Source: Mortierella sp. BCC40632 (lineage: Eukaryota; Mortierellomycota; Mortierellomycetes; Mortierellales; Mortierellaceae). From it: DNA of 50,952 nt. How positions within the stretch are numbered: the stretch's first letter is position 1; each line of letters opens with the position of its first letter. Both the position numbers and the translations under genes were made by a program. The stretch is from positions 1 through 50,952 of the forward strand of contig WAEK01000042.1 of assembly GCA_011634665.1 (NCBI GenBank). The letters are read 5' to 3'. Shown here piece by piece: positions 12,413 through 48,524 of this stretch. Under the pieces are notes generated by a model. The model was not told the DNA's origin and ran no database searches. It worked only from the letters and a program-made list of their open reading frames with translations.

Positions 12413-13110
12413 TTGGAAACTAGCCTAAAATGGTTAAATATAAGTATTCAAAGTGAACCTTTTCAACAGACTAGTTTTTTAGTATCAACTATTGTTCCTA
12501 TTAGTTCTCAAAATAATTCTTCAAATAAAGAAGATAATAAATTAAGTTATTGGTTAAATCATTATAATATTAAACCTGAATTAATTTATGAATCTCTTTA
12601 TAAAGATGAAATAAAAGAAAACATAAAAATTGAAACAAAAAAAAAAGCTGGTATTTATGGTATTTTTAATATTAAAACAGGTGATTTTTATATAGGTAGT
12701 GCAATTACAAATAAGTTTTATAGTAGATTTTATAAACATTTAATTAAAGGAATTGGCAGTAAATACGTTTTTAATTCTGTAAATAAATATGGTATTGAAA
12801 ATTTTGCTTTTGTAATCTTAGAATTTTTTCCTGAAGAAGTTACTAAAAAAAATAATAAAGAACTTATGAGTTTAGAAACTAAGTATCTTAAAAAATTTAA
12901 CCCTTCATTTAATATTTTACTTGAGGCCGGAAACATCTTTGGATTTAAACATACTGAGGAGTCTAAAAAAAAGAATAAAAAAACCTAGAACAGAGGAAAC
13001 TCCCCCGGGGGTTTCCCCCCTGGGGAGGAAACTAAAAAAAGAATGAGTGAAGCTCATAAAGGAAAATCTCTTTCCATTATCACTAAATATAATAAAAAAA
13101 AAGATTCTAC
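12413..13110 (+). pseudogene. GIY-YIG endonuclease fused to cob exon 3, truncated
   Basis: The gene reads in frame from cob exon 3. The catalytic domain is 'KKAGIYGIFNIKTGDFYIGS' with 'SLETKYLKKFNPSFN'. It is a different subfamily from most GIY-YIG genes here. The frame stops at 12986 just before a GC double hairpin (12995-13033). Beyond the hairpin the gene goes on as 'EETKKRMSEAHKGKSLSIIT' until it is cut near 13105 by the start of a cox1-leader cassette. Confidence 0.7.
12995..13033 (+). repeat. GC double hairpin element
   Basis: GGAAAC-T-CCCCCGGGG-GTTTCC-CCCCTGGGGA-GGAAAC: the target word appears twice in direct orientation with its reverse complement between. The net insert is 32 nt, so it shifts the frame. 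Confidence 0.75.
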
Positions 13111-13239
13111 CGTTTTTTTAATTCTTAAATATAATAATAATTAATTACATAATCAATTTTTATTAGGAATATTTTTATAATTTAATTTAAACAAAATGGC
13201 TCAAGTCTCAAGTTTTAAATTATAAACTAAATGATCCTT

Positions 13240-13365
13240 TTAAATCTAATTTAAATATTTAATAAATAAAGGATTGTCAAACATATAAAAAAATTATGAA
13301 ACGATGGCTTTTTTCAACAAATGCTAAAAATATAGGTATATTATATTTAATTTTTGCATTATTTT
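13240..13365 (+). repeat. Copy of cox1 leader and N-terminal codons (copy A)
   Basis: 'TTTAATAAATAAAGGATT' and an A-rich stretch precede ATG and codons for 'MKRWLFSTNAKNIGILYLIF', the N-terminus of Cox1. Related copies lie at 16480, 22525 and 26258, each starting a GIY-YIG gene. The remainder of cox1 does not follow, so this is a captured 5' fragment. Confidence 0.75.
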
Positions 13366-14264
13366 TGGTTATATTTGGAACTGGATTTTTAATGTTTAAT
13401 TCATTAGAATTTGCTTCTTTCTTATCCTCTTTATTTTGGTTCTATGATTCTTTATTATCTATTTCGACCTGTAGTGATTATAATATTAATAATTATATTT
13501 CTATGGTAGACTTTAGATATGCTGTATGTCTTCCAGTCAAATTTTATCCTAATGCAGACACTGATAAAACTAAAATTTTAAATGATAATAATTCTCTCGC
13601 AGGAATTTATAAATGGACCCATGAATCAACGGGTAGAATTTATATTGGCTCATCTTTTAATTTATCAAAACGATTTTCTCAATATTATTCTAAATCTCAT
13701 TTACAACGAAACAAAACTATGTTCATTTGTAATGCACTTTCTATTTATGGCTATGGGCAATTTTCTATTACTATTCTTGAGACAATAAATATATTGAATT
13801 TATCAAAAGAAGAAGCACGAAAATTAATTCTGGAGCGGGAACAATATTATCTTGATACTCTTTTGCCTCAGTTTAATATTAGTTTAACAGCAGGTAGTAC
13901 GCTAGGTTATACTCATTTATTAGAAACTAAAGAAGCAATTAGTAAAAATATGAAAGGAGTAGCAAAATCTAAGGAACACAAAGATGCGATGAAAATTGCA
14001 AATAAAGGTGAAAAGAATCCAAATTTTGGTAAGACTCATTCAGCTGAGGCTAGAATAAAAATAGGGGTTGCTTTAGGATATCCTATTTTTGTATATTCAA
14101 GTGATGGGTTAACATTAATTGATAGTTTTTATTCTGCTAGAAAAGCGGCTGAATCTCTTAATTGTTCTTATAAAACAATTCTTAGATATGCCTCAAGTGA
14201 AAAATTATTTAGAAACAAATGGATCTTATCTACATCTAAAAGAGATAGTTCTGTCTCTTCTTAG
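13296..14264 (+). CDS. GIY-YIG endonuclease with a Cox1 N-terminus (intact)
   Basis: The 322-aa protein begins with about 22 residues of Cox1 ('MKRWLFSTNAKNIG') and a short hydrophobic stretch. An intact GIY-YIG domain follows ('AGIYKWTHESTGRIYIGSSF', 'EREQYYLD'), then NUMOD3 repeats ('EKNPNFGKTHSAEA') and a NUMOD1 module ending 'FRNKWILSTSKR'. The Cox1-derived start and leader would give it the expression signals of a highly expressed gene. It carries no GC inserts and looks functional. Similar but broken chimeras are at 22572 and 26312. Confidence 0.85.
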   Translation: MKRWLFSTNAKNIGILYLIFALFLVIFGTGFLMFNSLEFASFLSSLFWFYDSLLSISTCSDYNINNYISMVDFRYAVCLPVKFYPNADTDKTKILNDNNSLAGIYKWTHESTGRIYIGSSFNLSKRFSQYYSKSHLQRNKTMFICNALSIYGYGQFSITILETINILNLSKEEARKLILEREQYYLDTLLPQFNISLTAGSTLGYTHLLETKEAISKNMKGVAKSKEHKDAMKIANKGEKNPNFGKTHSAEARIKIGVALGYPIFVYSSDGLTLIDSFYSARKAAESLNCSYKTILRYASSEKLFRNKWILSTSKRDSSVSS

Positions 14265-14354
14265 ACATTTTACAAAAGCAAAAATTTTATAGATAGGGAG
14301 TATAAACATATATTATTTTTTGCTTAAAGCATTAAACTCCCCCTGCCTCCCATT

Positions 14355-14441
14355 ATGGATCTTGAGACTAAGTGGATTAAAACTTATTCTCCATCATATA
14401 ATATTTTATTAGAATCTTGTAACCCTGAAACATTTTATAGA
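14355..14441 (+). pseudogene. GIY-YIG fragment interrupted by a LAGLIDADG cassette (5' piece)
   Basis: 'MDLETKWIKTYSPSYNILLE' matches 'MSLETKYLKKFNPSFNILLE' of the GIY-YIG gene at 12413. It breaks right after 'NILLE'. The continuation ('GNSFGYKHTEETKQKMKENY') is at 15431-15859. Confidence 0.65.
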
Positions 14442-14479
14442 TAAAATTATTATACTCCTACGAGAGATAATATTATCTA

Positions 14480-14585
14480 TTTTTATTATTAAAGTGGCTA
14501 TGTCCGGAATAAATAGAAGCAGGCTATATCCGAAATAAATAAATGATTAAATCTCATTTTTTTGTAAAACTTTTTATTATTTAGC
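14480..14585 (+). promoter_or_regulatory. Copy of the cox2 leader ahead of a LAGLIDADG gene
   Basis: 'AAGTGGCTAT.TCCG', 'AAATGATTAAATCTCATTTT', 'TTGTA' and an ATGTTA start match the leader of cox2 (45308-45384) and of the decayed cox2 copy (47880-47955). Here the leader precedes an endonuclease gene instead of cox2. Confidence 0.6.
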
Positions 14586-15350
14586 ATGTTAACAAATTTT
14601 ATTATTACAAAGTTCGAGTCTTTTCAATCATCTCGAATGTTTTCAACTAACAAGATTTATGCAACTAGATTGGAATCTTGTAGTCTTGTTCCTTATGGAT
14701 CTAATCTTTCATCTAATGTTGGATATCCAAGATTCACGAGATTTGTAAGTGATCAAATTTTTTTACCCCCGCATATAAGAGGTGTTGTAATAGGACTAAT
14801 TCTATCGGATGGTTGGGTATCTTTTTCTAGCGCAGGAAATAAAAATGCAAGATTAGGGTTTAAACAAACTTTTCCTGCTAATTTTGAGTATTTTTGGTAT
14901 ACTTCTAATTTATTATCTCATTATAATAAAAGTTTACCTAATTTAACTTCTTCTGTTAAAGACGGGGTAAGATCTTATGGTTTACAAATGCAAACTAGAG
15001 CTTTACCTTGTTTTACTGAATTATATAATATATTTTATGTGAATGGAATTAAGATTATTCCTGACTTTGAAATAATTTATAATTTAATAACTCCTGAAGT
15101 TTTAGCTCATTTGATAGCAGGGACTCTTCATCAAAAATCTGTAATTTTATGTACGGACTCTTTTTCTATACCAGATGTAGTTAAATTGATTAATGTATTA
15201 ATTATTAAGTATGATATAGAGTGTACTCTTCCTATGCATAAAAAAGTTAAACCAAGAATACGAATTAGAGCAAGATCAATGCCTAAATTAGTTTCTATTG
15301 TAGCTTTACATATGCCATGTTCCATGCGCTATAAATTAGGATTATCTTAA
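14586..15350 (+). CDS. LAGLIDADG_2 endonuclease under a cox2-like leader
   Basis: The 254-aa intact frame has first motif 'IRGVVIGLILSDGWV' and conserved 'ARLGFKQTF' and 'LPCFTELYNIFYVNGIKIIP'. The second motif position reads 'LAHLIAGTLHQK', where relatives have an acidic 'MDDG' or 'MGDG'. Loss of that acid suggests reduced or no cleavage, or a nickase-like state. It belongs to a different subgroup from the genes at 2430 and 10838. It splits a GIY-YIG gene between 14441 and 15431. Confidence 0.8.
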   Translation: MLTNFIITKFESFQSSRMFSTNKIYATRLESCSLVPYGSNLSSNVGYPRFTRFVSDQIFLPPHIRGVVIGLILSDGWVSFSSAGNKNARLGFKQTFPANFEYFWYTSNLLSHYNKSLPNLTSSVKDGVRSYGLQMQTRALPCFTELYNIFYVNGIKIIPDFEIIYNLITPEVLAHLIAGTLHQKSVILCTDSFSIPDVVKLINVLIIKYDIECTLPMHKKVKPRIRIRARSMPKLVSIVALHMPCSMRYKLGLS

Positions 15351-15430
15351 TTTCGTGTCTTCTTTTACTTAAGGTGGACACCCCCCCTATCTTCAATCTA
15401 ATCTATATAAAAATATTATATTCAATTATA

Positions 15431-15859
15431 TTAGAAGGTTCTGCTATGAAAGGCATAGTTGATACTAGGCTAATAGGGGTAGCCTCTCGCTTTGGTAATT
15501 CTTTTGGTTATAAACATACTGAAGAAACAAAACAAAAAATGAAAGAAAATTATTCTGATGAACGAAGAAATAAAGTTGCTTTTATCAATAAAAATAAACC
15601 TCTTTCAGATCATACTAAATATTTAATGAGAGAAAGAGCTTTAAATATGAGTAATGAAACTAAAAAAAAAATTAGTGTAACATTATCAAAATCAGTTACT
15701 CTTTATAATTTAGATTCATCAATCTATACCTCATTCCCAGGATTATACGAAATGGCTAAATATTTTAAATGCGATACTAGAACTATTAATAAGGCTATAG
15801 AGAATAACAAATTATTTAAGAAACAGTGGTATGTTAAATTTAATAACCCTTCTAAATAA
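15431..15859 (+). pseudogene. GIY-YIG gene, 3' piece after the LAGLIDADG insertion
   Basis: The piece contains 'SFGYKHTEETKQKMKENYSD', further helical DNA-binding repeats, and a NUMOD1 module with 'AKYFKCDTRTINKAIENNKL' and 'FKKQWYVKF', ending at 15857. It continues the fragment at 14355-14441. The ATG at 15374 is upstream junk, so the piece would not be translated on its own from a native start. Confidence 0.65.
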
Positions 15860-16530
15860 TAATACCTTTAATATTATCTTAAATAAGGTAATAGTAATAA
15901 ATCAATGTTAATATTAACAATTTGAATTTATTTATATTTAATTATAGTCCTATTCGGAGTATTATGTAATTTTCACAAAAAAATTCTACAGTAGAATAGA
16001 ATGTCCTGACAGGGATATTGGAGAGATTAACTTAACAATATTTTAAATACAAGATATATTGTTCTTTATTTTATTTCAGGAGATTAATTTTGGTAGTACT
16101 ATAACGCCCGGCAGACCCGCAGCAGTGGCGCGGGCCGGGAATTTATTTAATAGTCAATTTTATAATTTAATAATAAATATTTGTATGTATTATACAGTAA
16201 ATACTTATAATTTTGCTTTTGTAGTTTTATCCTTCACTAGACTAGACTTAACTAGACGACTAGATTATTTTTTGAAAAGGTTACCTGAACCACAGGTACT
16301 GAGTAAAAATTATTATAAGATAATCAAAAAGATTATATTTTTTTTTTTTTTATTTTTAAACATAATAATAATTAATTACATACTCAATATTTTTAGGATT
16401 CTTTTTTTTTAGCAAAGTAACTATACCTAGGCGGCTCAATTCTACCTTTATATAGTTTTTCTTAAAAAAATGACCCCTTAAAATATAAATTTAAATATTT
16501 AATAAATAAAGGATTATCTAAACTAAAAAA
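15860..16530 (+). other. Non-coding: repeat, GC cluster and cox1-leader copy B
   Basis: 15945-16040 resembles 11870-11960 (possible leftover intron RNA). 16088-16137 is a GC cluster ('GCCCGGCAGACCCGC', 'GGCGCGGGCCGGG') that can fold as a hairpin. 16480-16531 is a degenerate cox1 leader ('TTTAATAAATAAAGGATT'), followed by ATG but without Cox1 codons. Confidence 0.5.
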
Positions 16531-17495
16531 ATGGACATTAACAAAAAAATATTTTTCACACCAGTAATTACATATAATAATGTAGATACTGACAAATCCA
16601 AAATTTTATCAGATAACAGAGGTAAAACAGGAATTTACCTGTGGGAACATTTGAAATGAAAAAAAAAATTTATGTAGGTTCTTCAATCGATTTAAAAAAT
16701 CGTTTATTAAAAAGTATTATAATATAGACTATTTAAAGCGTAATAAAACTATGTATATATGTAATGCCCTTTTAGAGCATGGATTTGGAGCGTTTTCCTT
16801 ATTTATCCTTGAATATTTCGATATTTCGAATTTATCAAAGGATGAAAAAAAAAAAAAACTAATTCTAGAACGGGAACAACATTACTTAGATTCATTACGA
16901 CCTGAATATAATATACTTAATAAAAGCAGGTTCTTCGTTAGGTTATAAACATACTGAAGAATCATTAATAAAAATTAGTCAAACTCATTTAGGTAAAACA
17001 GTTTCTACAGAAACTCCCTCCGGGGGTTTCCGCCCCGAAAGGGCAGAAACTATAAAAAAACTTAGTGAAATTATGTCAGGAGAAAATCATCCTTTCTTTG
17101 GTAAAACCCATTCCACTGAAACTAAGGAGAAAATGAGAGTTGCTAATTTAGGTAAAAAACATTCTGATAAGACTAAAGCTTTAATTAGTGAAGCCCTTAA
17201 AGGTAAGAATCATCCTAATAAAGGTAAAAGTCATTCAGCTGAAACTAAAGCTTTACTGAGTAATATTAATAAGGGTAAATTTATTTTACCTGAGACTAAA
17301 GCAAAATTAAGTGAAATATTTGGTACTACTATATATATATATTCTCCTGATAAGATAACATTAATTAATAGTTTTTCTTCCGCTAGAAAAGCTGCTGAGG
17401 AATTTAATGTTTCTAAGGATACAATTTTAAGATATGCAAAAAATGGTAAATTATTTAAAGAACAATGGATCTTATCTACATCTTTAATTAATTAA
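16531..17495 (+). pseudogene. GIY-YIG endonuclease with frameshifts
   Basis: All modules are present but split over frames: 'TGIYLWEHLK', 'KIYVGSSIDLKNR', 'EREQHYLDSLRPEYN', NUMOD3 repeats from 17073, and a NUMOD1 module ending 'FKEQWILSTSLIN' at 17493. Frame breaks lie at A-runs near 16655 and 16710 and near 16920. A GC double hairpin at 17010-17051 adds 36 nt and keeps frame. Since the breaks sit in homopolymers, the gene could be intact in reality. Confidence 0.75.
17010..17051 (+). repeat. GC double hairpin element (in frame)
   Basis: GAAAC-TCCCTCCGGGG-GTTTC-CGCCCCGAAAGGGCA-GAAAC. The net insert is 36 nt and encodes a short Pro-Ser-Gly-Gly-Phe segment. It is the exact reverse complement of the element at 27307-27348. 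Confidence 0.8.
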
Positions 17496-17933
17496 CCAAA
17501 AAGTTAACTCAGAACCTGAAGGGATAGAAGGGGACTATCCAATATGATACGTCATATTTTAACACCCAACTTTTGTTTTTCGCTTATATCTTTTATTTAA
17601 TATTGGAGAGTATCATCGATCTCTCTGGCGACATTAGTGAAAACGGTTAAAAATTAATCTTCTTTTTTAAGACCGTCGGTTATGTGAATAATCGCTACAG
17701 ACTGGGTCACTAATGGGTGTCTGATTTAGTTAATTAATTTTAATCTAAAAATGATGCTTAATGTACAGTCGGAATTTCCAAAAATTATAAAGTCTAATTG
17801 CTTTTTAAAAGACTATATATATTTTTCACAAGGCCTTAAATGATACTTATTAGAAAGAGTTAAAACTTGGGGATTAATAAGTTGATAAGGTACAGGTAAA
17901 TTGAACTAGAAGAAAATATATAAAACTATATTT

Positions 17934-18701
17934 ATGTTTAATTTAGGAAATTGGTATGTACTTCCATACGGGCAAATGAGCTTCTGGGGTAAATTTTGTG
18001 CCCAAGATGACTTAAGTTTTTTAAATACAAATCCAAACAATTTAATTTATAGTTCAATTTTACCTTTTATAGCTCCAAAAACAAAATCAGCGAATAGAAT
18101 AGGTCCTCATGACTATAAGGTCCTTTCTATTTTGATTGGATCTTTATTAGGAGATGCCCATGCTGAAAAACATGGGAACGGTACTAGATTTTGCTTTCAA
18201 CAAGAGCATTTACACAATTCTTATTTATTATGGTTTCATAATTATTTAAGTGAATTAGGATATTGTAATAGTACAATACCTAAAATAACTTCAAGAATAG
18301 GTAAACAAGGTAAATTAAGATATATTTCTAGATTTAAAACTTACACTTTTTCAAGTTTTAATTGGATCCATGAATCTTTCTATAAAGATGGTATTAAAGT
18401 AATACCTAATAATTTAGATGAATACTTATCACCTTTAGCTTTAGCAGTCTGGATCCAAGATGATGGAGGAAAAGTATCCTCAGGCTTAAAAATAGCTACA
18501 AATAGTTTTACTTATGATGAAGTTAATATTTTAGCTAAAATATTAAGAGATAAATATAACTTAAAAGTATCTATTATAAAAGCTGGGGCTTTAAATCAAT
18601 ATAATCTATATATCTCTAAATCGTCAATGAAAGATTTAGCAGAAATTATAAAACCTCATCTTCATCCATCGATGTACTATAAATTAAATGGTTATATTTA
18701 A
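17934..18701 (+). CDS. LAGLIDADG_2 endonuclease of cob intron 4, in frame with exon 4
   Basis: The frame starts just before exon 4 and continues into the intron. First motif 'LSILIGSLLGDAHAEKH', then 'NWIHESFYKDGIKVIP', second motif 'LALAVWIQDDGGK', and C-terminus 'PHLHPSMYYKLNGYI'. Both catalytic acidic positions are present and the frame is uninterrupted. It is the same subgroup as the gene of cob intron 6 (25387). The ribozyme core follows at 18784. Likely an active homing endonuclease, possibly also a maturase as known for some cob intron proteins. Confidence 0.85.
   Translation: MFNLGNWYVLPYGQMSFWGKFCAQDDLSFLNTNPNNLIYSSILPFIAPKTKSANRIGPHDYKVLSILIGSLLGDAHAEKHGNGTRFCFQQEHLHNSYLLWFHNYLSELGYCNSTIPKITSRIGKQGKLRYISRFKTYTFSSFNWIHESFYKDGIKVIPNNLDEYLSPLALAVWIQDDGGKVSSGLKIATNSFTYDEVNILAKILRDKYNLKVSIIKAGALNQYNLYISKSSMKDLAEIIKPHLHPSMYYKLNGYI
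17955..17990 (+). CDS. cob: cob exon 4 (12 codons)
   Basis: The exon encodes 'YVLPYGQMSFWG', one of the most conserved stretches of cytochrome b. It joins exon 3 'TGFLG' and exon 5 '[15 protein letters not shown]' in frame. It is 36 nt long, ending at GGT before intron 4. Confidence 0.9.
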
Positions 18702-19023
18702 AAATTAAGTCATAGTTTTATCATTAGTAATTTTGCAATATATGAATAGAAAAAATTATGTTTGATATGATAAAAGCAATATCAATGAAAACGGTTAAAG
18801 AACAAAGTTTAAGACCGTCGGTTGTTCATACAATCGCTACAGACTGGCTCATTGGTAGGTGCCTGAAATGGTGCTTAATGTACAGTCGGAATCTTTATAA
18901 TATTTTAATTAATATTATCACAAGGCTATCTAACGGTATTTTTACCTACTTAGCGTTATACACTAGGTTAGCATAGTACAGGAATAAATTTGTTTTTTGG
19001 TTAAAAAATTTATTAAAGATTAG
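17991..19023 (+). mobile_element. cob group I intron 4
   Basis: The intron lies between TTCTGGGGT and GCAACTGTA. Its core at 18784-18895 has 'ATGAAAACGGTTAAAG', 'AAGACCGTCGG', 'CGCTACAGACTGG' and 'GTACAGTCGG', the same ribozyme family as nad5 (1090), cob intron 3 (17638) and cob intron 6 (27592). The LAGLIDADG gene lies upstream of the core. Confidence 0.8.
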
Positions 19024-20039: not shown

Positions 20040-20089
20040 GGTAAAGCTCCCCTGGGGGGCTTTACCCCCCCCCCCGGGGGAGGTAAAGC
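20040..20089 (+). repeat. GC double hairpin element (in frame)
   Basis: GGTAAAGC-TCCCCTGGGGG-GCTTTACC-C(n)GGGGGA-GGTAAAGC. The 42-nt net insert preserves the GIY-YIG frame and adds Pro/Gly-rich residues just before the catalytic 'GIY'. Confidence 0.8.
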
Positions 20090-20924: not shown

Positions 20925-21110
20925 ACTAGCATAAGTAATTCGGTAAAAAGATTGAGTAAAGCTCCCTTCGGGGGCTTTACCCCGGGGAGGGGAGGTAAAG
21001 CTGAAAAAGAGAAAATTATGAACTTGATGACTACTTACGTCAAGTATTAGTAGGTAGGTAATATACTCGGGAGGGTAAAAAAAATATTTATGAAAAATAA
21101 ACAGGCTAAG
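20925..21110 (+). pseudogene. N-terminal remnant of a LAGLIDADG_2 gene with GC hairpin
   Basis: 'SVKRLSKAEKEKIMNL', read across a GC double hairpin (20956-21002), resembles the 'STKRLTN.E' start of LAGLIDADG_2 genes. 'QVLVG' in the next frame resembles the first motif. It is cut near 21110 by the cassette at 21121. It is probably the 5' end of the gene continued at 21938. Confidence 0.5.
20956..21002 (+). repeat. GC double hairpin element
   Basis: GTAAAGC-TCCCTTCGGGG-GCTTTAC-CCCGGGGAGGGGAG-GTAAAGC. Confidence 0.8.
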
Positions 21111-21120
21111 ACCGATTATT

Positions 21121-26130: not shown

Positions 26131-26530
26131 AACATATAAATTATTACCCCGGGCCGGCCGGGGATTTAATTAATTACATATTCTATTTATCAGAATCATT
26201 TTTCTAAGAATTAAACTCAGATATTTGTTCGAGTTCTTCTTTTTAAAATGATTTTTTTAAATCTTATTTAAATATTTAATAAATAAAGGATTATCAAACA
26301 TAAAAAAAAATATGGTACGATGGCTTTATTCAACAAAAACTAAGGATATAGAAACTCTATATCTAATTCTTGGATTATTCTCATTTATAATGGGATTATT
26401 CTTTACTTTATTCCTTTCTTTCCCCTCACAAAATCTAGGGGAAGTTTATAGTATTGGAATACTTTTTGTTCCTATAAAAGTTTATTCTAATGCTGAAACA
26501 GAGAAATCACGAATTTTGTTAGATAATAAA

Positions 26531-26580
26531 GGTAAAAGCTCCCTGGGGGGTTTTTTACCCCCGGGGGGAGGTAAAAAGCT
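26531..26580 (+). repeat. GC double hairpin element
   Basis: GGTAAAAGCT-CCCTGGGGGG-TTTTTTACC-CCCGGGGGGA-GGTAAAAAGCT. The inner inverted copy is slightly diverged. Confidence 0.7.
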
Positions 26581-26707: not shown

Positions 26708-26759
26708 AGAGCTCCCCAGGGGGGGGGGCACCCCCCGGGCGGAGCGCCCCCGGGGAGCA
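26708..26759 (+). repeat. GC cluster, long form
   Basis: GAGCTCCCC, a G-run, then 'CACCCCCCGGGCGGAGCGCC' and CCCGGGGAGC. Its interior is nearly identical to the cluster at 41373-41427. Confidence 0.7.
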
Positions 26760-26938: not shown

Positions 26939-27306
26939 CGGTTCCTTGCTTGGATTTAATCACTCAGAAGAAACTAAATCCGAATTGAGTGAAATCAATT
27001 TGGGTGATAATCATCCGAATTTTGGTAAAACTCGTTCAGCTGAAACTAAATTGAAAATTAGTGAAAGTCATAAAGGTAAAACTATTTCTGATTAAACTAG
27101 AGCGAAAATGAGTAAAACTAAAAAGGTGAAAATCATCCAATGTTTGGGAGAACTGGTGAAGATAATCCAATGTTTGGTAGAACTCTTTCAGCTGAAACTA
27201 AAGCTTTAATGAGTAAGGCTAGAAGAGGAAAAACACATTCTGCAGAAACCAAGGCTAAAATGAGTAAGAAAGTATTTGTTTTTCTAAAGATCTTATATCA
27301 AATAAA

Positions 27307-27348
27307 GTTTCTGCCCTTTCGGGGCGGAAACCCCCGGAGGGAGTTTCT
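27307..27348 (+). repeat. GC double hairpin element, inverted copy of 17010-17051
   Basis: GTTTC...GAAAC...GTTTC. Base for base it is the reverse complement of the element at 17010, although it lies in a different GIY-YIG gene and at a different position in that gene. Confidence 0.8.
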
Positions 27349-27589: not shown

Positions 27590-27854
27590 ACTAGTGAAAA
27601 CGGTTAATGGCTATTTAGCAGAAGACCGTCGGTATAACTCAGCCGGGAGGCTGAGGGAAATCGCTACAGACTGGGTCACTGGTAGGTAAAGTAGAACACT
27701 TTGCTTAATGTACAGTCGAAATAATTAATTAAATTTTTAAGTTTCGTCAGGTTATTTTGGGATATAAATTATTTTATTAAAAATAAGAAAGGCCTGCCCC
27801 CCGGGCGGGCCCTTCCCTGCGGGAAAGGCCTGATAAGAATTTAATTATTATTTG
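27590..27854 (+). mobile_element. Group I ribozyme core of cob intron 6
   Basis: The core strands are listed under the intron. A further GC element (27788-27831, 'AAAGGCCT' at both ends) lies between the core and the 3' splice site. The final base is G27854, before CTAACAACCCA. Confidence 0.75.
27788..27831 (+). repeat. GC double hairpin element near the 3' splice site
   Basis: AAAGGCCT-GCCCCCCGGGCG-GGCCCTTCC-CTGCGGG-AAAGGCCT. The inner inverted copy is imperfect. Confidence 0.6.
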
Positions 27855-32007: not shown

Positions 32008-32140
32008 CGGATCTACTCTGGGATTTAAACATTCAGAAAAGTCTTTAGTCAAGTTAAGTCTTGCCAAAACTGGTGAAAATCATCCAATGTTTGGTATAAC
32101 TGGTAAAGATCATCCTTCTTATGGTAAAATACATTCTGAG

Positions 32141-32182
32141 GAAACTCCCTCCGGGGGTTTCCCCCCTAGAAGGGGGGAAACT
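32141..32182 (+). repeat. GC double hairpin element (in frame)
   Basis: GAAAC-TCCCTCCGGGG-GTTTC-CCCCCTAGAAGGGGG-GAAAC. The 36-nt net insert keeps the frame, encoding Thr-Pro-Ser-Gly-Gly-Phe and flanking residues. Confidence 0.8.
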
Positions 32183-32915: not shown

Positions 32916-32989
32916 GCTCTGATAGCTTAATTGGTTAAAGTAGAGGTTTGAAAAACCTTTGACGGTTGTTCGATTCAACTTAGGGGGCA
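32916..32989 (+). tRNA. trnF: tRNA-Phe (anticodon GAA)
   Basis: D-arm 'AGCTTAATTGGTTAAAG', anticodon arm GAGGT-TTGAAAA-ACCTT with GAA, and T-arm GGTTG-TTCGATT-CAACT. The acceptor 5' strand GCTCTGA would pair with TTAGGGC, but the 3' strand reads TAGGGGGC with extra G. Either there is a homopolymer error or an acceptor repaired after transcription. Confidence 0.75.
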
Positions 32990-32999
32990 AAATTTAAAA

Positions 33000-33045
33000 G
33001 GTAAGCTCCCCGGGGGGCTTACCCCCCTGAGGGGGGAGGTAAGCT
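33000..33045 (+). repeat. GC double hairpin element beside tRNA-Phe
   Basis: GGTAAGC-TCCCCGGGG-GGCTTACC-CCCCTGAGGGGGGA-GGTAAGC. It lies 11 nt after the tRNA, outside any coding sequence. Confidence 0.8.
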
Positions 33046-34766: not shown

Positions 34767-34946
34767 TTAAAAGAATTCGCTTGCTTCTTTAATACTATTA
34801 AATATTATAAAACTATTATCAATATTACTAACTACCCGGGGGTCGCTCCCCTCGGTGTAGCTCCCGAAGGGAGCTATAATTTTTAACATTCTACCAGAGC
34901 GTAAAGGTTTATTAGATTTTATATGAACACGTTTTGAATCTACTAA
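34767..34946 (-). pseudogene. C-terminal fragment of a LAGLIDADG_1 gene with GC hairpin
   Basis: 'LVDSKRVHIKSNKPLRSGRM' and 'DNSFIIFNSIKEASEFF' duplicate the C-terminus of the gene at 37545 ('LVDSKRVHIKSNKPLRSGRM', 'FNSIKEASKFF'). It is joined in frame to nad1 copy 3 upstream. A GC element (34834-34876) lies inside it. Confidence 0.75.
34834..34876 (-). repeat. GC double hairpin element (minus orientation)
   Basis: On the minus strand TAG-CTCCCTTCGGGAG-CTA-CACCGAGGGGAGCGACCCCCGGG-TAG. The repeated word is only three bases. Confidence 0.5.
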
Positions 34947-39250: not shown

Positions 39251-39261
39251 GAAATTAGTAA

Positions 39262-41372: not shown

Positions 41373-41427
41373 AAAGCTCCCCAAGGGGGGGGGGCACCCC
41401 CCGGGCGGAGCGCCCGGAGGGAGCTTT
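41373..41427 (+). repeat. GC cluster, long form
   Basis: AAAGCTCCCC, a G-run, 'CACCCCCCGGGCGGAGCGCC' and CGGAGGGAGCTTT. Interior almost identical to 26708-26759; the ends are inverted rather than direct repeats. Confidence 0.7.
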
Positions 41428-41631: not shown

Positions 41632-41879
41632 CGGGTTATATACTATTAGACTCTGGTCAGACGATAATTTCTTGTTTAGAGTAATCTAAACACCCTCCTT
41701 ATTATTATGCCCATTATGAATATATTATAGTACAATAATATTTATTAACATGTCAACTTGAAATTTTACTATTTACTGTAACTACATAAAAAGAAGATTA
41801 AAGCAAGTAGCAATAATTTTGTTACTATCAAAAATTTTTACTGGAGCTGCTCTATCTTTATATTAAGAATTCAATAGGA

Positions 41880-41990
41880 GTTGGGTGTTTATTATTATTA
41901 TTATATGTTATAGCAGAAATATGATAAGATCTAATTTGAAAAAGTCCAATAGGATTATGTTGACCTACACGATTATTTTGAAATATTTAC
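41880..41990 (-). repeat. Copy of the tail following nad1 exon 1
   Basis: 'CGTGTAGGT', 'TATTGGACT' and 'TTAGATCTTATCATAT', followed by an ATT repeat and an ACACCC motif, match 43640-43720 on the same strand. The source of the tail (encoding 'IRSYHI') is not recognised. Confidence 0.6.
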
Positions 41991-42150
41991 TTTAATCTTT
42001 TGTTTTTAATTAATCCTCCTGTATACTGAACTCTAGGATTAATTGAATCTTACAATGAAAGATAACCTTACTATAGATTATAACTATAAAAAATAATTTA
42101 AGCCTTGGAAAATAAAAGGTTTGAAAAGGGAGCCTGGGGGGGGTGTTAAC

Positions 42151-42290
42151 TGATTGTACAGGTAATTGACCTTCAAATGCATGGAATGCTGGAGAAGACG
42201 TTATCGCCCACTCTAGCGTAGTTGCAGTTTTCGTAATACCAGCACCTTTCAGGCTAGTAAAGAAAGCTGGAACAAATTCTGAATAATTTG
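42151..42290 (-). pseudogene. cox1: cox1 C-terminal fragment
   Basis: 'FVPAFFTSLKGAGITKTATT' and 'LEWAITSSPAFHAFEGQLPV' are the last residues of Cox1, the catalytic subunit of complex IV. There is no stop at the usual place: the frame runs 'QSVNTPP' through a C-run (42138-42145), as in nad4 and nad1 here. No other cox1 coding sequence adjoins it, so it is a displaced 3' end. Confidence 0.7.
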
Positions 42291-42421
42291 TTATTTGGCA
42301 GAAATTAAAACTAAATAGAAAATAACTTTAGGCTAAGTTTAACTATTCCTCCGAGCTAGTGCCTGCGGGGTATGGAACTACCGGGATCAATTTATATATA
42401 TTCTTGAAGAGTTCGTATTTA

Positions 42422-43336
42422 TTACTGAAACTCTTTAGAGAAAGATATGATATATTGTTTTTTAAATATTTTACCACTTTTAGCATAATTTAACACTGTT
42501 TCTCTAGAAACGTTTAATCCTATAGCGGCCTTAGAAGCTGAAGGAAAACTATTAACTAAAGTAGTTTTATCTAAAGAAAAAATATAAATAGCAGCTCCTC
42601 TAGCCGCACTAATTTTTGCTTTAGTTTCTTCAGAAGGAAATCTACCTAGCTTAGCTTCACTTATTTTTGCTTTTGTTTCAGCACTATGATTTTTTCCAAA
42701 CATAGGATGATTTTCACCCATCCTTTTCGCCAATGATTCCGCTGAATGAGATTTACCAAACATAGGGTGATTTTCTCCCTTATTTAACTTACTAAGTAAA
42801 GCTTTAGTCTCCTCAGAATGTTTAAAACCTAGAGAAGAACCGGCAATTTTTTGAATATTATATTCAGGTTTAAGCTCATCAAAATAAAACTGTTCTCGAG
42901 AAATCAGTTTCTCCTCTTCACAATATTGAAATACTATAAAAATGAAATCTTGTAATTTGTATTTATTTATAGCTCTTTGGAGTAAAATATTTGATTTAGA
43001 ACCAACAATATGGTCATTGAAACGAGAATATAAATCCACTGAAGAACCAATATATAATTTACGCGTTGTTTTACAAAAAAATCCATAAATACCAGATTTA
43101 TTTTTTATTTCTTCTCTAATAATTGTTTTTATGCTTTCTAAATGTAACAATCCTGAGAATAACTCTATAGTTAGAAAAAATAATTGTAAATTCTTAATCA
43201 AATTTTTATCATTACTATTATTATTATTCATTGAAGATCCGCTATTAATTCTATTTTTTTTTAATGAATTTAATAACTTGCTAGAAGTAAATTTTTTATT
43301 TAAGTTGAACATTTTTATAATTAATATAAATCCCAT
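42422..43336 (-). CDS. GIY-YIG endonuclease in nad1 intron (intact)
   Basis: The 304-aa protein has catalytic domain 'KSGIYGFFCKTTRKLYIGSS' and 'SREQFYFDELKPEYN'. Four NUMOD3 repeats follow ('GENHPMFGKSHSAESLAK'), then a NUMOD1 module ('ASKAAIGLNVSRETVLNYAK', 'FKKQYIISF'). The frame is complete and lacks GC inserts. It lies in the 5' part of the nad1 intron, on the sense strand, upstream of a cox1 C-terminal fragment, suggesting that gene and fragment arrived together. Confidence 0.85.
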   Translation of the reverse strand: MGFILIIKMFNLNKKFTSSKLLNSLKKNRINSGSSMNNNNSNDKNLIKNLQLFFLTIELFSGLLHLESIKTIIREEIKNKSGIYGFFCKTTRKLYIGSSVDLYSRFNDHIVGSKSNILLQRAINKYKLQDFIFIVFQYCEEEKLISREQFYFDELKPEYNIQKIAGSSLGFKHSEETKALLSKLNKGENHPMFGKSHSAESLAKRMGENHPMFGKNHSAETKAKISEAKLGRFPSEETKAKISAARGAAIYIFSLDKTTLVNSFPSASKAAIGLNVSRETVLNYAKSGKIFKKQYIISFSKEFQ

Positions 43337-43630
43337 AATTACAGCTTTCTACTAAGGAAATAATTCTTTTTCCTAGAAAACTTCCCCAGTAGAAATTCTT
43401 ATTAGAAAACTGATTTACAAAAATTTTTTATAATTTTTTTCATGGTAATTTTGCACTTAACTTGATTATAATGATTATAATTTTATAATCTTTACCCGAC
43501 AAACTCGTCATTGGTTAATCAACCTTGATAGGTTAGAATTGAACTTACAATAAAAGATTCCCTTTAATAATATTATTATTAAATATATAATATAAGATTT
43601 ATTCTTATATTTAATGACTAAGTAAGAGAA

Positions 43631-43648
43631 GGGGCCCAAGGGGGTGTT
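43631..43648 (-). terminator. AACACCCCC-type 3' end motif
   Basis: 'TAAACACCCCCTTGGGCCCC' on the minus strand, downstream of nad1 exon 1 and its tail. Same form as 3181 on the plus strand. Confidence 0.4.
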
Positions 43649-43710
43649 TATTATTATTACATGCTAATGTAGATATGATAAGATCTAATTCGAAGTCCAA
43701 TAAAATCTTA

Positions 43711-43839
43711 ACCTACGCGATTCGGACCGATACGTCTCTGCATCGATCCCATAATTTTACGTTCAGCAATTGTAACGTAAGCTATAGAACCCAATAAAGG
43801 TCCTATTACAATTAATGCTTCTAATAAATAAATTATCAT
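43711..43839 (-). CDS. nad1: nad1 exon 1
   Basis: The 43 codons from ATG encode 'MIIYLLEALIVIGPLLGSIA', 'YVTIAERKIMGSMQRRIGPN' and RVG, the universal Nad1 N-terminus. The next codon is TAA, inside the intron. Exon 2 continues 'YYGLLQ' at 40213. The exon is intact and ends in GGT. Confidence 0.9.
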
Positions 43840-43947
43840 ATTATTTTTATTATTATTTCTTTATCTCTATTGATCCAATAATCGTTTTACTTTATAGAAT
43901 TCTCATATTTTTATATATAAAATTAGGAGTCTATAAAATGTGGTCTT

Positions 43948-44047
43948 TATTCGGTAAGAGCCACAAAATAGTAAAACAGTGAGACCAACAACATTATTTT
44001 GTTGTAGAGAGACCATACTTATCATCTAATATACCGAAAGTTACCAG
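43948..44047 (-). repeat. Structured inverted repeat, right arm (partner 28867-28967)
   Basis: Reverse complement of the left arm with a few changes. It lies about 110 nt upstream of the nad1 start, so it may carry a promoter or processing signal. Confidence 0.7.
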
Positions 44048-44814
44048 AAATTTCAATAGAATGAAAGAATTGAACTATCATTATCTTATTAAAATAAACA
44101 TAATACCATAAAAGTATTTTCCTGGTTATATAATTTTTCGGGGGGATAAAAAAAGGAGAAAGCAAAGTCATATTTTAAATGATTATTATTAATTTAAGAA
44201 TTATTCTTAAGCTTCATTTGAAGTTGTAAAGCTTACTAAAAGATAATATCTATTATAAAAATCGTTGGTCCCCTAATTTATGGTTGTTTTATGTTTTCTT
44301 TATAAATAAAAACGGGAAAAGCGTAGAAAACACTTGAATGGATTTGAACCATTATTATTAAGTTTCGAAGAAATTCTAAGGATTTTTAATATATTCTTTT
44401 ATTACTCTATCTTAGCTTTAAATAGAGGCATTAAAAAAATATTATTATATATTAAATCCTGGTTAAAATTAATAAATAGTGGATATAATTATTTAATAGT
44501 GGTTCATAATTAGGGTAAAAACTAAATCAATAGTTTAAGTAAAACAGCGGATCTCTTAGATATTTTAAAGACGGAAGTTCGAGTCTTCCTTGGTTAATTT
44601 TTTATCCTACCTCTCTACCCACCTAGATACGAGTAACTTTGTGTCGCCCACAATACCGTTAGCTTCTCTTTTTTCATTTCTTTGATTTTTTATTAATAGA
44701 TTTCCTTTATGGATTCTTCTTGTTTAGTTACGAATAAGTTGATCTCTATTATTATTAAATTAATTGCGCCTTTACTGACTATTCAGGTTAACCATTCTTT
44801 ATTGGCAATGGTCA
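44048..44814. other. Spacer with two tRNA remnants
   Basis: 44328-44380 (-) has the 3' half of tRNA-Arg(UCG) ('TCAAATCCATTCAAGTG', 'CTTCGAA'), but its 5' half is decayed. 44524-44597 (+) has acceptor AAATCAA/TTGGTTA and T-arm GGAAG-TTCGAGT-CTTCC, with a central arm about four bases too long, so no anticodon can be read. 44638-44675 is an inverted repeat of 36441-36476. Confidence 0.5.
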
Positions 44815-45082
44815 AAACATTCAGCTGAAACTAAAGCTAAAATGAGTTTAGCAAAAAATAAAAGAGTATTTGTTTACTCTTTTGATTCTCTTTCTAATAA
44901 AAAAACTGCATAAATCTTTTGATAATTGTTCAGAAGTGAGTTTACATTTTAAATGCGGTTTACGTACATTATCTAGATATATAGATAAAAACAAATTATT
45001 TAGAAAAGAATGGATTTTATCTACTTCCTTAATTTAAAGATAAATGGATTTTATCAACTTCCTTAATTTCTAAGGAATAATT
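44815..45082 (+). pseudogene. GIY-YIG C-terminal remnant with short duplication
   Basis: 'HSAETKAKMSLAKNKRVFVY', then broken frames and 'NKLFRKEWILSTSLI'. The last 34 nt ('AATGGATTTTATC.ACTTCC') are duplicated in tandem. Confidence 0.65.
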
Positions 45083-45192
45083 ATAGTAGGGTTATAATAT
45101 ACTATAACGTCCCAATTATGCTAACGTTTAATCAAAATTTTTGATTAACACCCCCGCCCCCCGCGAATGGGGGTTTTTAATATTAAATTATG

Positions 45193-45265
45193 AACACTTG
45201 AATAGATTTGAACTATTATTATTAAGTTTCGAAGACTCACACTTTTCCAGTTAAGTTACAAGTGC
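45193..45265 (-). tRNA. trnR: tRNA-Arg (anticodon UCG)
   Basis: Read on the minus strand: acceptor GCACTTG/CAAGTGT (one G-T), D-arm 'ACTTAACTGGAAAAGT', anticodon arm TGAGT-CTTCGAA-ACTTA with TCG, and T-arm 'ATAGTTCAAATCTAT'. It resembles tRNA-Arg(UCU) at 33631. Confidence 0.75.
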
Positions 45266-45307
45266 TTAATTAAAAATCGTCGGCCCCCTATATTGTAGGT
45301 TATTGAT

Positions 45308-45383
45308 TAAAAGTGGCTATAACCGTTATGAATATATAAATGATTAAATTTCATTTTTTGTACAAGATTCTTAATTTTTAATT
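45308..45383 (+). promoter_or_regulatory. cox2 leader
   Basis: 'AAGTGGCTATAACCG', 'AAATGATTAAATTTCATTTT' and 'TTGTACAAGA' precede ATG. Copies of this leader precede a LAGLIDADG gene (14480) and a decayed cox2 N-terminus (47880), so its ends can be defined by comparison. Confidence 0.5.
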
Positions 45384-46151
45384 ATGTTAAACCTTTTCAA
45401 TTTTAATGTTGCTTATTGTGACATGCCGGAGCCCTGGCAATTTTCTTTCCAAGATGGAGCATCACCATCTTTTGATGGAATTGTAGATCTTCATGATCAA
45501 ATTATGTTTTATTTAATAATAATTCTTATTCTTGTATCTTGGATGTTAGGTACAATTATTATTAAATTTAATACAGCTAAAAACCCTATTGTATACAAAT
45601 ATTTTACACATGGTACTGTTATAGAATTAATTTGGACAATTACTCCTGCATTAGTTCTAGTTGCCATAGCATTCCCAAGTTTTAGATTATTGTATCTGAT
45701 GGATGAAGTAATAGATCCTGCTATTACTGTTAAAGCTGTAGGTTCTCAATGGTTCTGGAGCTATGAATACTCTGATTATATCTCAGATTCTGGAGAACCA
45801 ATAGCTTTTGATAGTTTTATGGTTCCAGAGGCAGACTTGGAGGAAGGACAATTTAGATTACTTGAAGTAGATAACAGAGTAGTATTACCTGTTGATACGC
45901 ATGTTAGATTTATACTAACAGGAAGTGATGTAATCCATTCTTTTGCTGTTCCAGCTTTAGGTCTTAAATTAGATTCTATCCCAGGTCGGTTAAACCAAAC
46001 TTCAACGTTTATTAACCGAGAAGGTTTATTCTATGGACAATGTTCAGAATTGTGTGGTGTTAACCACGGGTTTATGCCAATCGTTATCCAAGCTGTTTCT
46101 TTAGAGAAATACTTAGCATGGTTAAACGAACAATTAAACTCCCCCCCTTAG
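45384..46151 (+). CDS. cox2: cox2 (cytochrome c oxidase subunit 2), intact and intron-free
   Basis: The 255-aa protein has two transmembrane helices after '[20 protein letters not shown]' and '[12 protein letters not shown]'. The CuA site is complete ('[10 protein letters not shown]', '[14 protein letters not shown]' with Cys, Glu, Cys, His and Met). It accepts electrons from cytochrome c in complex IV. The end is odd: 'LNEQLNSPP' is encoded by a C7 run directly before TAG. In the neighbouring frame the sequence continues into a LAGLIDADG_2 gene. A second C-terminus with two introns lies at 47004-47766, so the present intron-free 3' end was probably acquired with that gene. Confidence 0.95.
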
Positions 46152-46902
46152 TGAAGAGGAACTATTAACTTTAAGTACGTCTTCTATTTTAATTAAATAT
46201 TCAAAAACTTCTAAAAATTCTCTTCCTATTGATGAACCTAAAACCTCTTCAAAATTTTTATTAGATAGAAGTTATAGCACACGAAGATTAACTAAAATTG
46301 AAAGAGATTCATTTTCTATACCTCAGCATTTACATGAAGTTATCATAGGTAATTGTTTAGGCGATCTTTATATTCGTAAACATGCTAAGGGGATAAATGC
46401 TAATTTAATGTTTGAACAAGGTATAATTCATGAAGCATATATCTTACATTTATATTCTTTATTTAAAGATTATTGTAGTTCAGCACCTAAATACAGTGAG
46501 TTTAAACCTGATAAACGTACAGGTAAAGTATATACTAGAATTCAATTAAGTTCTTACGCCTTACCTTGTTTTAATTATTATCGGGAATTGTTTTATATTG
46601 ATGGTGTTAAAACCATTCCTTTAAATATAGGGGAACTTTTAACACCTGTAAGTTTAGCATATTGGGCAATGGATGATGGTTTTTCACAAAGTTCAGGGTT
46701 TACATTGTCTACGGAATCTTATTCTTTTAAAGAAATAGAATTATTGATTAAAGCTTTAAAAGATAATTTTGATTTAAATTGCTCTATTCATAAAAGTAAA
46801 AATAGCTATAGAATTTATATAAAATCGGATTTCATGGATAAATTTATATCTCTTGTTACACCTCATTTCTATGAATCAATGATGTATAAACTTGCTACCT
46901 AA
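46147..46902 (+). CDS. LAGLIDADG_2 endonuclease overlapping the cox2 3' end
   Basis: The frame is open from the cox2 stop region ('[20 protein letters not shown]') through '[20 protein letters not shown]', first motif '[14 protein letters not shown]', second motif '[13 protein letters not shown]' and '[11 protein letters not shown]'. The first ATG (46408) lies after the first motif, so translation from it would give a defective protein. More likely it is read from cox2 by a frame change at the C7 run, or the run length is wrong and cox2 and endonuclease are one fusion. Catalytic residues are intact. Confidence 0.8.
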
Positions 46903-47003
46903 CTATTTTTACTAATATTTAATTTACTTTTTTAATAAAAACTTAAACTAATTATACTCCCCCTTTTACTGTATTTTTACAAAATTAAACATTCTAAAAC
47001 CAT

Positions 47004-47151
47004 ACTCATGTTAGATTTATTTTAACTGGTAGCGATGTTATACATTCTTTTGCCGTTCCAGCTTTAGGTCTTAAATTAGATTCTATCCCAGGTCGGTTAA
47101 ATCAAACTTCTACGTTTATTAACCGAGAAGGGTTATTCTATGGTCAATGTT
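47004..47151 (+). pseudogene. cox2: Displaced cox2 C-terminus, exon a
   Basis: '[20 protein letters not shown]' to 'LFYGQC', at nucleotide level close to the cox2 gene. It joins exons b and c in frame (148+27+71 nt = 82 codons). No upstream cox2 sequence adjoins it. Confidence 0.85.
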
Positions 47152-47391
47152 CAAATTCTGGACCTTTATATTGGTAACAATATAATTTGTATTAAGCTAT
47201 ATGCTGGAACATCCTTAGAGCCTTAAGTACCATTTATTGTGAGTAAAGGTAAAAATCTTAAGGATTGGACAATCAGCAGGAAACCCATTCGGAACTCGGT
47301 GGAGATCCTCAGAGACTACATGCTTAACATCCTTTATGGAAAAGGATGATGATATAGTCCAGTTTTATTTTGAAATAAATTATTAATACTG
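47152..47391 (+). mobile_element. Group I intron a in displaced cox2 end
   Basis: The 240-nt intron starts 'CAAATTCTGGACCTTTATAT', contains 'AATCAGCAGG', 'CCTCAGAGACTACATGCT' and 'GATGATGATATAGTCCAG', and ends 'AATACTG'. It is closely similar to the ribozyme at 19195 in cob, and ORF-less. Confidence 0.8.
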
Positions 47392-47418
47392 CAGAGTTAT
47401 GTGGTGTAAATCATGGGT
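47392..47418 (+). pseudogene. cox2: Displaced cox2 C-terminus, exon b (27 nt)
   Basis: CAGAGTTATGTGGTGTAAAT plus CATGGGT encodes 'SELCGVNHG' with neighbouring bases, part of the CuA site. Confidence 0.8.
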
Positions 47419-47695
47419 TAAATTAAAGCCCCTTAGAGTAGTAATACTTTAATGCAAATAGGGTGAATTGCAAAAACATCCTTTTCACAGAGGGATAATT
47501 TGCAGCGAAGCGTATATCAGTGTCTTTATAGGTATACGAACGTTCAACGACTAATCGGTGAGCAGCACTAGCAATAATCCGGACACGAGTGCCCTACAAC
47601 CATTTACCATCAAGTATATTGGTTGATAACATAGTCTAAGCCAATAGGTAACTATTGGAAGATAGAGCTAAACACTTTATCGATAATAATTTCTG
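47419..47695 (+). mobile_element. Group I intron b in displaced cox2 end
   Basis: The 277-nt intron has 'AGGGTGAATTGC', 'TTTGCAGCGAAGC', 'GAACGTTCAACGACTAA' and 'GATAACATAGTCTAA', almost the same as cob introns 2 and 7, and is ORF-less. It is inserted after the same GGGT word as cob intron 7. Confidence 0.8.
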
Positions 47696-47766
47696 TTATG
47701 CCAATTGTTATCCAAGCTGTTTCTCTTGAGAAATATTTAGCTTGGTTAAATGAGCATTTAAGTTAG
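47696..47766 (+). pseudogene. cox2: Displaced cox2 C-terminus, exon c
   Basis: '[20 protein letters not shown]' then HLS and TAG. It ends without the Pro-Pro extension of the active gene. The C-rich motif 'AACACCCCCCC'-type follows at 47838. Confidence 0.8.
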
Positions 47767-47837
47767 AATGCTCCCGATTTCTGTCTATAATTAGGCAGTT
47801 CTCGAAAATTTTAGTTTAGCTTAACGAATACTTAAGC

Positions 47838-47850
47838 TAAACACCCCCCC
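47838..47850 (+). terminator. AACACCCCC-type 3' end motif
   Basis: 'TAAACACCCCCCCGGC' follows the displaced cox2 end by about 70 nt. Confidence 0.4.
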
Positions 47851-47879
47851 GGCTCCGCGTCTTAATAATATTAATTATT

Positions 47880-48092
47880 AAAGTGACCGTGTCCGATTCA
47901 TATAATATAAATAATTAAATCTCATTTTTTGTATTAAATTAAAAATTTCTAATCATGTTATTAAACTTTTTCAATTTTAATGTTACTCTTTGTGACATGT
48001 TAATACCTTGGCGATTTTCTATTCAAGATAGGGCATTACCATCTTTTGATAGAATTATTAATCTTGATCAAATTATGTTCTGTGCTTTTTGA
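47880..48092 (+). pseudogene. cox2: Decayed copy of cox2 leader and N-terminus
   Basis: The leader matches 45308-45383. From 47955 the frame 'MLLNFFNFNVTLCDM' and 'SIQDRALPSFDRIINL' is a mutated Cox2 start; it loses homology after 'DQIMF' and stops. Replacements such as Glu-Pro to Ile-Pro show relaxed constraint. Confidence 0.8.
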
Positions 48093-48249
48093 TATGTGAT
48101 TATTTAAATATGTCAATAATCTTAAATGAAGAAAGTTTATTGACTTTAAGCTTATCTACTTTAATAATAAATTATTCTAAGGATCGTAAAGAACCAATTT
48201 TATTAAATGAACCTCAAGTTCCAATAAATATTTCTCCTTCGTTCATAAC

Positions 48250-48256
48250 GCGCAGC
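48250..48256 (+). repeat. 7-nt GCGCAGC insert in a LAGLIDADG gene
   Basis: 'ATAAC-GCGCAGC-CGGTTTTG': removal restores Ile-Thr-Gly-Phe-Ala-Asp-Ala-Glu-Gly. This is outside the GIY-YIG family, so the insert is not merely inherited among GIY-YIG paralogues. Confidence 0.75.
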
Positions 48257-48485
48257 CGGTTTTGCTGATGCTGAAGGTTGTTTTGATTTTGCTATTAGTA
48301 AATCTAAAACCATTAATACAGGATTTAGTGTTAAACCTCGATTTAGAATTACTGCTCATGTGCGAGATATTGTATTATTACATATGATAAAAAAATATTT
48401 CAATTGCGGTAATATTAGTAAAATAGATCTTAAAGATTGTTTAGATTTCACAGTATCAGATCAATATAGTATTAAAAATATTATA

Positions 48486-48524
48486 GTTCCTCCCCACAGG
48501 GGGGGAACCGCCGGAGGCAGTTCC
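48486..48524 (+). repeat. GC double hairpin element
   Basis: GTTCC-TCCCCACAGGGGG-GGAAC-CGCCGGAGGCA-GTTCC. Confidence 0.75.

Follow-up and report, generated by a model that had tools for sequence, protein, structure and literature searches.

Fungal mitochondrial DNA (mtDNA) contains several kinds of short GC-rich inserts, and the movement of two of these, GC clusters and double-hairpin elements, is unsettled; DNA transposition, RNA copying and recombination have been put forward as routes (PMC2800124 and PMC4478555 are among the sources; for all papers cited here by number, the statements concern the portions of text accessible to us). Double-hairpin elements, described in Allomyces, chytrid and Schizosaccharomyces mtDNA, are paired GC hairpins of tens of base pairs (bp) that are scattered through the genome and thought to be mobile, and some of those in fission yeasts are identical between species (PMC10085805). 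The Allomyces elements are reported to be without flanking duplications (PMC2800124, citing Paquin 2000), and the mitochondrial GC clusters of Saccharomyces are associated with AG or ACT repeats by a mechanism that is undecided (PMC4478555). Other inserts include 44 in the mtDNA of Annulohypoxylon stygium, which measure 12–106 bp and vary between isolates, 23 being intronic, three being named as lying in regions of GIY-YIG domains and 31 of the 44 having hairpins (PMC6140425), and the short bypassed inserts found at 81 mitochondrial places in Magnusiomyces capitatus, where most protein genes are hit (PMC5009743). Here we describe a set of elements in a 50,952-bp contig of Mortierella sp. BCC40632 (WAEK01000042.1; contig C42, hereafter the window) in which a short word X stands at both ends, two GC-rich arms lie between, and the reverse complement of the word, X', lies in the middle (X-GC-X'-GC-X). 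New here are the target of these elements, AG-N(2–6)-CT, and the confinement of mirroring to a G..C core.

In form, the elements resemble both double-hairpin elements and yeast GC clusters. Like the former, they consist of two adjacent GC-rich stem-loops in mtDNA; unlike those of Allomyces, they are flanked by repeats of 6–10 bp, and empty paralogs have one word. They share with the Saccharomyces clusters a word that starts with AG, AG and CT both being present in AG-N-CT, whereas the repeat of GC42 and other clusters is 2–3 bp long. For Allomyces, chytrid or fission yeast elements, the accessible parts of PMC10085805 and PMC2800124 mention no inner word copied from the target or matching it; nor is loop–target complementarity described for Saccharomyces in those of PMC4478555, or target duplication or a mirrored core for A. 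stygium in those of PMC6140425. The M. capitatus inserts are defined by translational bypassing, whereas several inserts here sit in an open frame. The ends of the elements are CCC../..GGG, but, unlike class II DNA transposons and miniature inverted-repeat transposable elements, with their terminal inverted repeats and target duplication of fixed length, they have a repeat whose length varies with the target word. We found no report of a target-complementary middle word in the searchable literature, a scope outside which Paquin 2000, Koll 1996 and most subscription papers lie; the accessible parts of PMC7218506, PMC6609731, PMC10234125, PMC2670323, PMC5910586 and PMC4618339 were also compared. 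Covariation between middle word and target is a handle on how such elements move that the accessible texts do not offer.

A mirrored plan in Mortierella mtDNA

A preliminary description of the window had named eight elements that share the plan and four weaker ones. A mechanical search for X..X'..X triples (X at least 5 nucleotides (nt) long and containing A or T; GC content of each arm 60% or more) recovered all eight, each of which follows X-GC-X'-GC-X, among 19 triples at nine places (12995, 17010, 20040, 20956, 26532, 27307, 32140, 33000 and 48486). Forty Markov shuffles of the window gave 0.1 triples on average and two at most; because shuffling destroys GC islands, the insert-swap tests given below are the stronger control. 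Two of the weaker sites, 5506 and 26531, proved to be consensus errors in the window, with perfect GGTAAAGC elements in other mtDNA contigs of the assembly (C36 with C40 and C36 with C46, respectively); the C36 and C40 copies at 5506 read GGTAAAGC-TCCCCTGGGGG-GCTTTACC-C(n)GGGGGA-GGTAAAGC. The other two do not fit the plan: the island at 27791 (site 27788) has the flanking repeat ATAAGAA and no mirror, and that at 34835 has a 4-base repeat only and no mirror. Inserts between the repeated words are 23–43 bp long (typically about 30) and are built roughly as CCC-loop-GGGG, G-N'-C, CCCC-loop-GGG (Table 1).

Table 1. Mirrored elements and family II elements, with their words and their state in other contigs; positions are those of the window unless a contig is given.
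Feature	Position	Strand	Word	Remarks
Element a, copy 1	5506..5550	+	X GGTAAAGC	Window consensus damaged; C36 and C40 clean
Element d	12995..13032	+	X GGAAAC; repeated word GAGGAAACT	C36 and C40 same; C46 damaged
Element f, copy 1	17009..17051	+	X AGAAACT	C46 identical; C40 run lengths differ
Element a, copy 2	20040..20089	+	X GGTAAAGC	C36 identical; C40 and C46 altered
Element a2	20956..21002	+	X GTAAAGCT; left word AGTAAAGCT; right word AGGTAAAGCT	Right arm cleaner in C36
Element a, copy 3	26531..26579	+	X GGTAAAGC	Window consensus damaged; C36 and C46 clean
Element f, copy 2	27306..27348	-	Target AGAAACT on - strand	C36 and C46 identical
Element e	32140..32182	+	X GGAAAC	C46 identical; left arm common to e and f
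Element b	32999..33045	+	X GGTAAGC	C46: X GGTAAGC, extra T in X'
Element h	48485..48525	+	X AGTTCCT	C46 differs slightly, left arm only
Outside window	C40:49296		GGGTAAAC	
Outside window	C48:2919		AGTTTCT	
Outside window	C48:16640		AGTACT	
Outside window	C48:34444		AGGTTCT	Reversed at C40:40361
Outside window	C33:85000		AGAAACT	Third f copy
Family II fixed GC element	26711..26758	.	At AGC/AGCT	No informative mirror
Family II, second window copy	41376..41424	.		

To score the mirror, we took for each element the longest stretch of the insert that matches the reverse-complemented flanking repeat, and summed these over elements. In a set of 11 independent elements (a, a2 and b to j, one insert each), picked by hand and mostly chosen because they mirror, the elements' own inserts gave a sum of 66, compared with a mean of 40.8 and a maximum of 61 for swapped inserts (200,000 permutations; p ≈ 5e-6) and a mean of 34.3 and a maximum of 43 for composition-shuffled inserts (5,000 rounds). 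The own insert was top or tied in all 11 rows, with ties for a/a2, d/e/f, h/j and i with e and j; the core of element i, GTAC, is self-complementary and its mirror trivial. For the eight elements with distinct cores, the observed sum of 48 was equalled and never exceeded by permutations (p ≈ 5e-5). Because the elements had been hand-picked, mostly for mirroring, the test was repeated on islands picked blind to the mirror (flanking repeat at least 7, insert at least 65% GC; 200,000 permutations each). Fifteen such islands, 12 of which follow the plan, scored 76 against a mean of 50.5 and a maximum of 71; with the three f copies counted once, the remaining 13 scored 66 against a mean of 43.7 and a maximum of 62 (p ≈ 5e-6 in both cases). 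That X' tracks X, as the preliminary description held, is thus confirmed.

A catalogue of islands, covering the window, C48, positions 25,139–39,862 of C40 and five C33 loci (one in part), holds 63 GC islands of at least 22 bp, 55 of them with a flanking repeat of at least 4, and misses the known elements 5506, 26531 and C48:26300. A reverse-complement match of at least 5 was seen in 0 of 19 islands whose repeat measures 4, in 1 of 20 whose repeat measures 5–6 and in 11 of 16 whose repeat measures at least 7. The invariable match between X' and the local X that was stated earlier is borne out for the G..C core in the 11 independent elements and fails for the outer A and T, which are unmirrored: in all 11, G precedes X' and C follows it (cores and junction bases set by hand), and both alternative stems retain T opposite G and A opposite C.

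The assembly from which the window comes comprises 49.9 Mb in 62 contigs. The mitochondrial origin of the window, proposed at the outset, was confirmed by parts of nad5, cob and cox2, tRNAs, four group I intron matches and numerous GIY-YIG/NUMOD3 intron open reading frames (ORFs). The best COX2 protein matches (P0001–P0004) have 90–95% identity, and the closest named proteins are Rhizophagus COX2 (72–73%) and a NUMOD3 protein of Haplosporangium (Mortierellaceae). Viral contigs gave no match to COX2, to the pattern of a or to that of d/e/f; in bacterial and archaeal genomes the best COX2 match had 60% identity, and, of the 80 COX2 loci kept from them, the nine that were scanned (L056–L064) showed no instance of the X-GC-X'-GC-X plan. 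Mitochondrial sequence also lies on six further contigs, of which C40, C48 and C49 were covered completely, C46 except for 436 bases, and C33 and C36 in part (C33, 110,666 bp, by eight search loci of about 3 kb plus 251 bases; C36, 65,035 bp, by six such loci). Overlaps of contigs with the window or each other show 94–99% identity along long stretches, and the C33 and C36 loci above the 90% cut show 91–99.8%. Differences among the window, C36, C40, C46, C48 and C49 are chiefly homopolymer indels, for which reason haplotypes were rejected as an explanation of these five contigs; we read the mtDNA contigs as redundant, error-prone assemblies of one mtDNA. They were therefore used only as checks on element sequence, and the same indels make reading frames and run lengths in the window unreliable: C-run lengths were not trusted, and we make no firm claim about reading frames through element a.

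The AG-N-CT target and its empty sites

Empty sites were taken from paralogs within the same mtDNA and from homologous proteins, using the best seven matches per site. When joined by a single X, the flanks of a (three sites), d, e and f (at 17010 and at 85000 of C33) align to paralogous ORFs with no gap at the insertion point; those of c and h do so too, but to less similar sequence. The alignment of i has gaps in the flanks and that of f at 27307 has them close to the insertion point, and a paralog search with the flanks of a2, b, g and j gave no match. A single word resembling X, such as GAAAC(T) or AAAGC, is present in the paralogs and is not always identical to X. Several inserts lie in coding sequence: f at 17009 is within the NUMOD3 stretch of an intron ORF whose frame stays open through the insert, e at 32140 is in a NUMOD3 stretch that an open frame likewise runs across, and a at 20040 is located at N(K/R)GKAGIY of a GIY-YIG ORF. 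Element b, by its position, begins 10 bp downstream of tRNA-Phe (32916–32988). The in-frame insert at 20040 is present in none of 32 aligned homologous proteins of other origin (36 matches listed), one of which, P0121, is short by two residues at the site. That at 32140 is present in none of 23 (24 matches listed); in these columns P0160 and P0175 have another NUMOD3-like stretch and P0159, P0162 and P0164 have a gap. The empty paralogs and insert-free proteins indicate that the word pre-existed and that the insert is new, which agrees with the earlier view of X as the target word.

When the outer edges of the two copies are read (left for the left copy, right for the right one), the target proves to be AG-N-CT, with N of 2–6 bases that are mostly A/T. 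With the three a and three f sites included, AG is found at 15 of 15 sites and CT at 14 (20040 ends in CA); the background is 1,114 AG-N0-6-CT matches for seven spacings in 50,952 bp, or about 0.3% per position and spacing. The repeated word adjoins the insert on both sides and is 6–10 bp long, varying with the target word. Its second copy is imperfect in e, which is without the A, and in a2, which has an additional G; the left (AGTAAAGCT) and right (AGGTAAAGCT) words of a2 are consistent in C42, C36 and C46, and such unequal words are expected if one side originates from the element. Because the AG-N-CT rule is identical on both strands, it fits two breaks, each 5' of AG, which would explain the 6–10-bp word. 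With N matching N', the rule is testable and predicts landing sites. By eye, the family II fixed GC elements (26711, 41376 and several places in C33, C40 and C48) lie at AGCT/AGC, which is the same rule with no spacer.

Movement of a ready-made insert

The 29-bp insert of f is identical, letter for letter, at 17009, at 27306 (as the exact reverse complement) and at C33:85000, and the flanks of these three sites show by eye no clear similarity beyond AGAAACT. The same insert at three dissimilar sites means that a ready-made sequence moves. AAA/TTT words account for 43 of 1,517 AG-N2-6-CT sites in 100,926 bases (a count that includes element-flanking copies), and the chance of two further AAA/TTT targets for f is about 0.0008 if targets ignore X'. 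Apart from its C-run lengths, the insert of a does not differ among three paralogous ORFs; the left flanks of these sites diverge within four bases of X, and on the right 20040 diverges at the first base and 5506 and 26531 from each other only at the seventh. Like copies in this single isolate are the three of a and the three of f. The type-2 elements f, g, h and i have in common a right arm beginning CGCC and carry four different cores.

These observations may be accounted for by very small, non-coding mobile mtDNA elements that insert where the core of a target matches their own middle word, through pairing or homology; we hold this reading with about even confidence. Breaks at AG on both strands would set the length of the word by sequence and not by a fixed stagger, and a site would be chosen because its core pairs with, or is homologous to, the X/X' word of the element. 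The mobile form would carry both X and X', for example as a circle or dumbbell X-h-X'-h' or as the corresponding RNA, and would enter and exit at X. More tentatively, and with appreciably less confidence, we suggest a self-guided micro-element, a DNA or RNA of about 30 nt in which a loop guide of 2–6 bases would pair with the core between AG and CT and, by insertion after AG breaks on both strands, duplicate the recognised word. Of five elements folded as DNA, f and h were predicted to form two hairpins and a, b and d a single long one whose apical loop holds X'; this latter fold, in which X' is exposed, could be the form in which an element acts as a guide. In IS608-like elements, guide bases beside a hairpin pair with the cleavage site; to our knowledge those elements do not duplicate their targets. 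In the Mortierella elements, core and target are complementary. If the self-guided reading is true, they would be a very small sequence-guided mobile DNA, in which a new guide would give a new target and lineages with altered guides would colonise new words.

Several points weigh against insertion directed by the core. The mirrored core is short (2–6 bases), and folding energies only moderately beat those of shuffles (z −1.4 to −2.0). Four cores on one type-2 right-arm plan are explained more directly by copying at insertion, and the three a copies could stem from short gene conversion. In the blind set, the islands at 27783 and at 755 of locus L027 are without a mirror, and the match at 744 of L025 is trivial, its repeat being A/T-only and nearly self-complementary. 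Some copies have one surplus T in X' (C46 at 33000, C40 at 17010 and C48 at the locus of C40:49296), which we take to be homopolymer errors. No intermediate, nuclease or reverse transcriptase was identified.

The mechanism proposed in the preliminary description was fold-back copying, in which a GC hairpin is added to a broken or stalled end bearing X, the end folds back on itself, and X' is synthesised from X before the end is rejoined. This would suit the way X' follows X across at least seven different cores and the similar right arms of type-2 elements with their different cores, and template switching is discussed as a source of perfect mitochondrial inverted repeats in the accessible part of PMC6649704. 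It does not suit arms and core that are identical at three dissimilar AGAAACT sites; moreover, exact copying of AG-N-CT would yield AG-N'-CT, whereas G..C is seen and the outer A and T are absent from the mirrored word in 11 of 11 elements, which argues against copying of the entire word. Fold-back copying at each site is accordingly not the best reading, and we think it unlikely. Somewhat less probable still is correction after insertion, whereby an element inserts although its middle word fits only roughly, and X and X' are afterwards made identical by hairpin-templated repair (quasi-palindrome correction). Such repair would account for perfect stems in elements of differing age, and conversion of inverted-repeat arms has been proposed for nematomorph mtDNA (PMC6649704, same part), but correction should erase the mismatches of T opposite G and A opposite C that persist at the stem ends, and f is identical at three sites. 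Copying and correction could each act on the core alone.

We consider it improbable that these are GC clusters or double-hairpin elements of the ordinary kind, which choose their sites loosely and show a mirror only as a by-product of G/C runs and short A/T-rich words. The brevity of the informative cores and the ties in the swap matrix speak for this, but swapped inserts in the hand-picked and blind sets, and composition-shuffled ones, all stayed below the observed sum, which in the distinct-core set was at most equalled. An artefact of assembly or sequencing in GC homopolymers can be all but discounted. Most differences between the contigs are indeed homopolymer indels, and corruption is plain to see in two of the window's copies, but the check across contigs found the full set of X, X' and X in two or more of them at 11 of 12 mirrored loci (33000 in the window only; contigs may share reads), and at 20040, 27307 and 32140 two or more contigs agree exactly across 280–290 bp. 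Errors, besides, blur the mirror and do not create it.

Other GC islands

Family II consists of elements of about 48 bp, GCTCCCC..GGGGAGC with inner hairpins, found in both orientations and at more places than any mirrored element; beyond the window they occur in C33 (47512, 51725, 81276, 84641, 85079 and 101634), C36 (5287 and 47175) and C40 (37309 and 37578). At 27783–27839, a double GC hairpin lies between ATAAGAA repeats with no mirrored word, so the plan is not followed by every flanked island. The island at 9235–9288 reads ACTAAG-CCCACGGGGGCTTCGTCCGCCGTGGG-TCTAGGCCCCCCGGGG-ACTAAG and is identical in C40; its repeat is 6 bp long, and the CTTCGT that it contains comes close to the exact mirror, CTTAGT.

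A GC dodecamer, GCGCGCAGCCGG, stands at a similar spot in five GIY-YIG ORF regions (5823, 20373, 26930, 31999 and 41114), where it precedes a GSSLG-like motif and may shift the frame. P0140, a homolog of the ORF at 20040, has a different in-frame insert, rich in proline and glycine, between two GSA motifs (YIGSAPQGAEPYPLPPQACGGVGSA); this is perhaps a related insertion in another organism. A GC palindrome, CCCCGGGCCGGCCGGGG, lies at 26147–26163.

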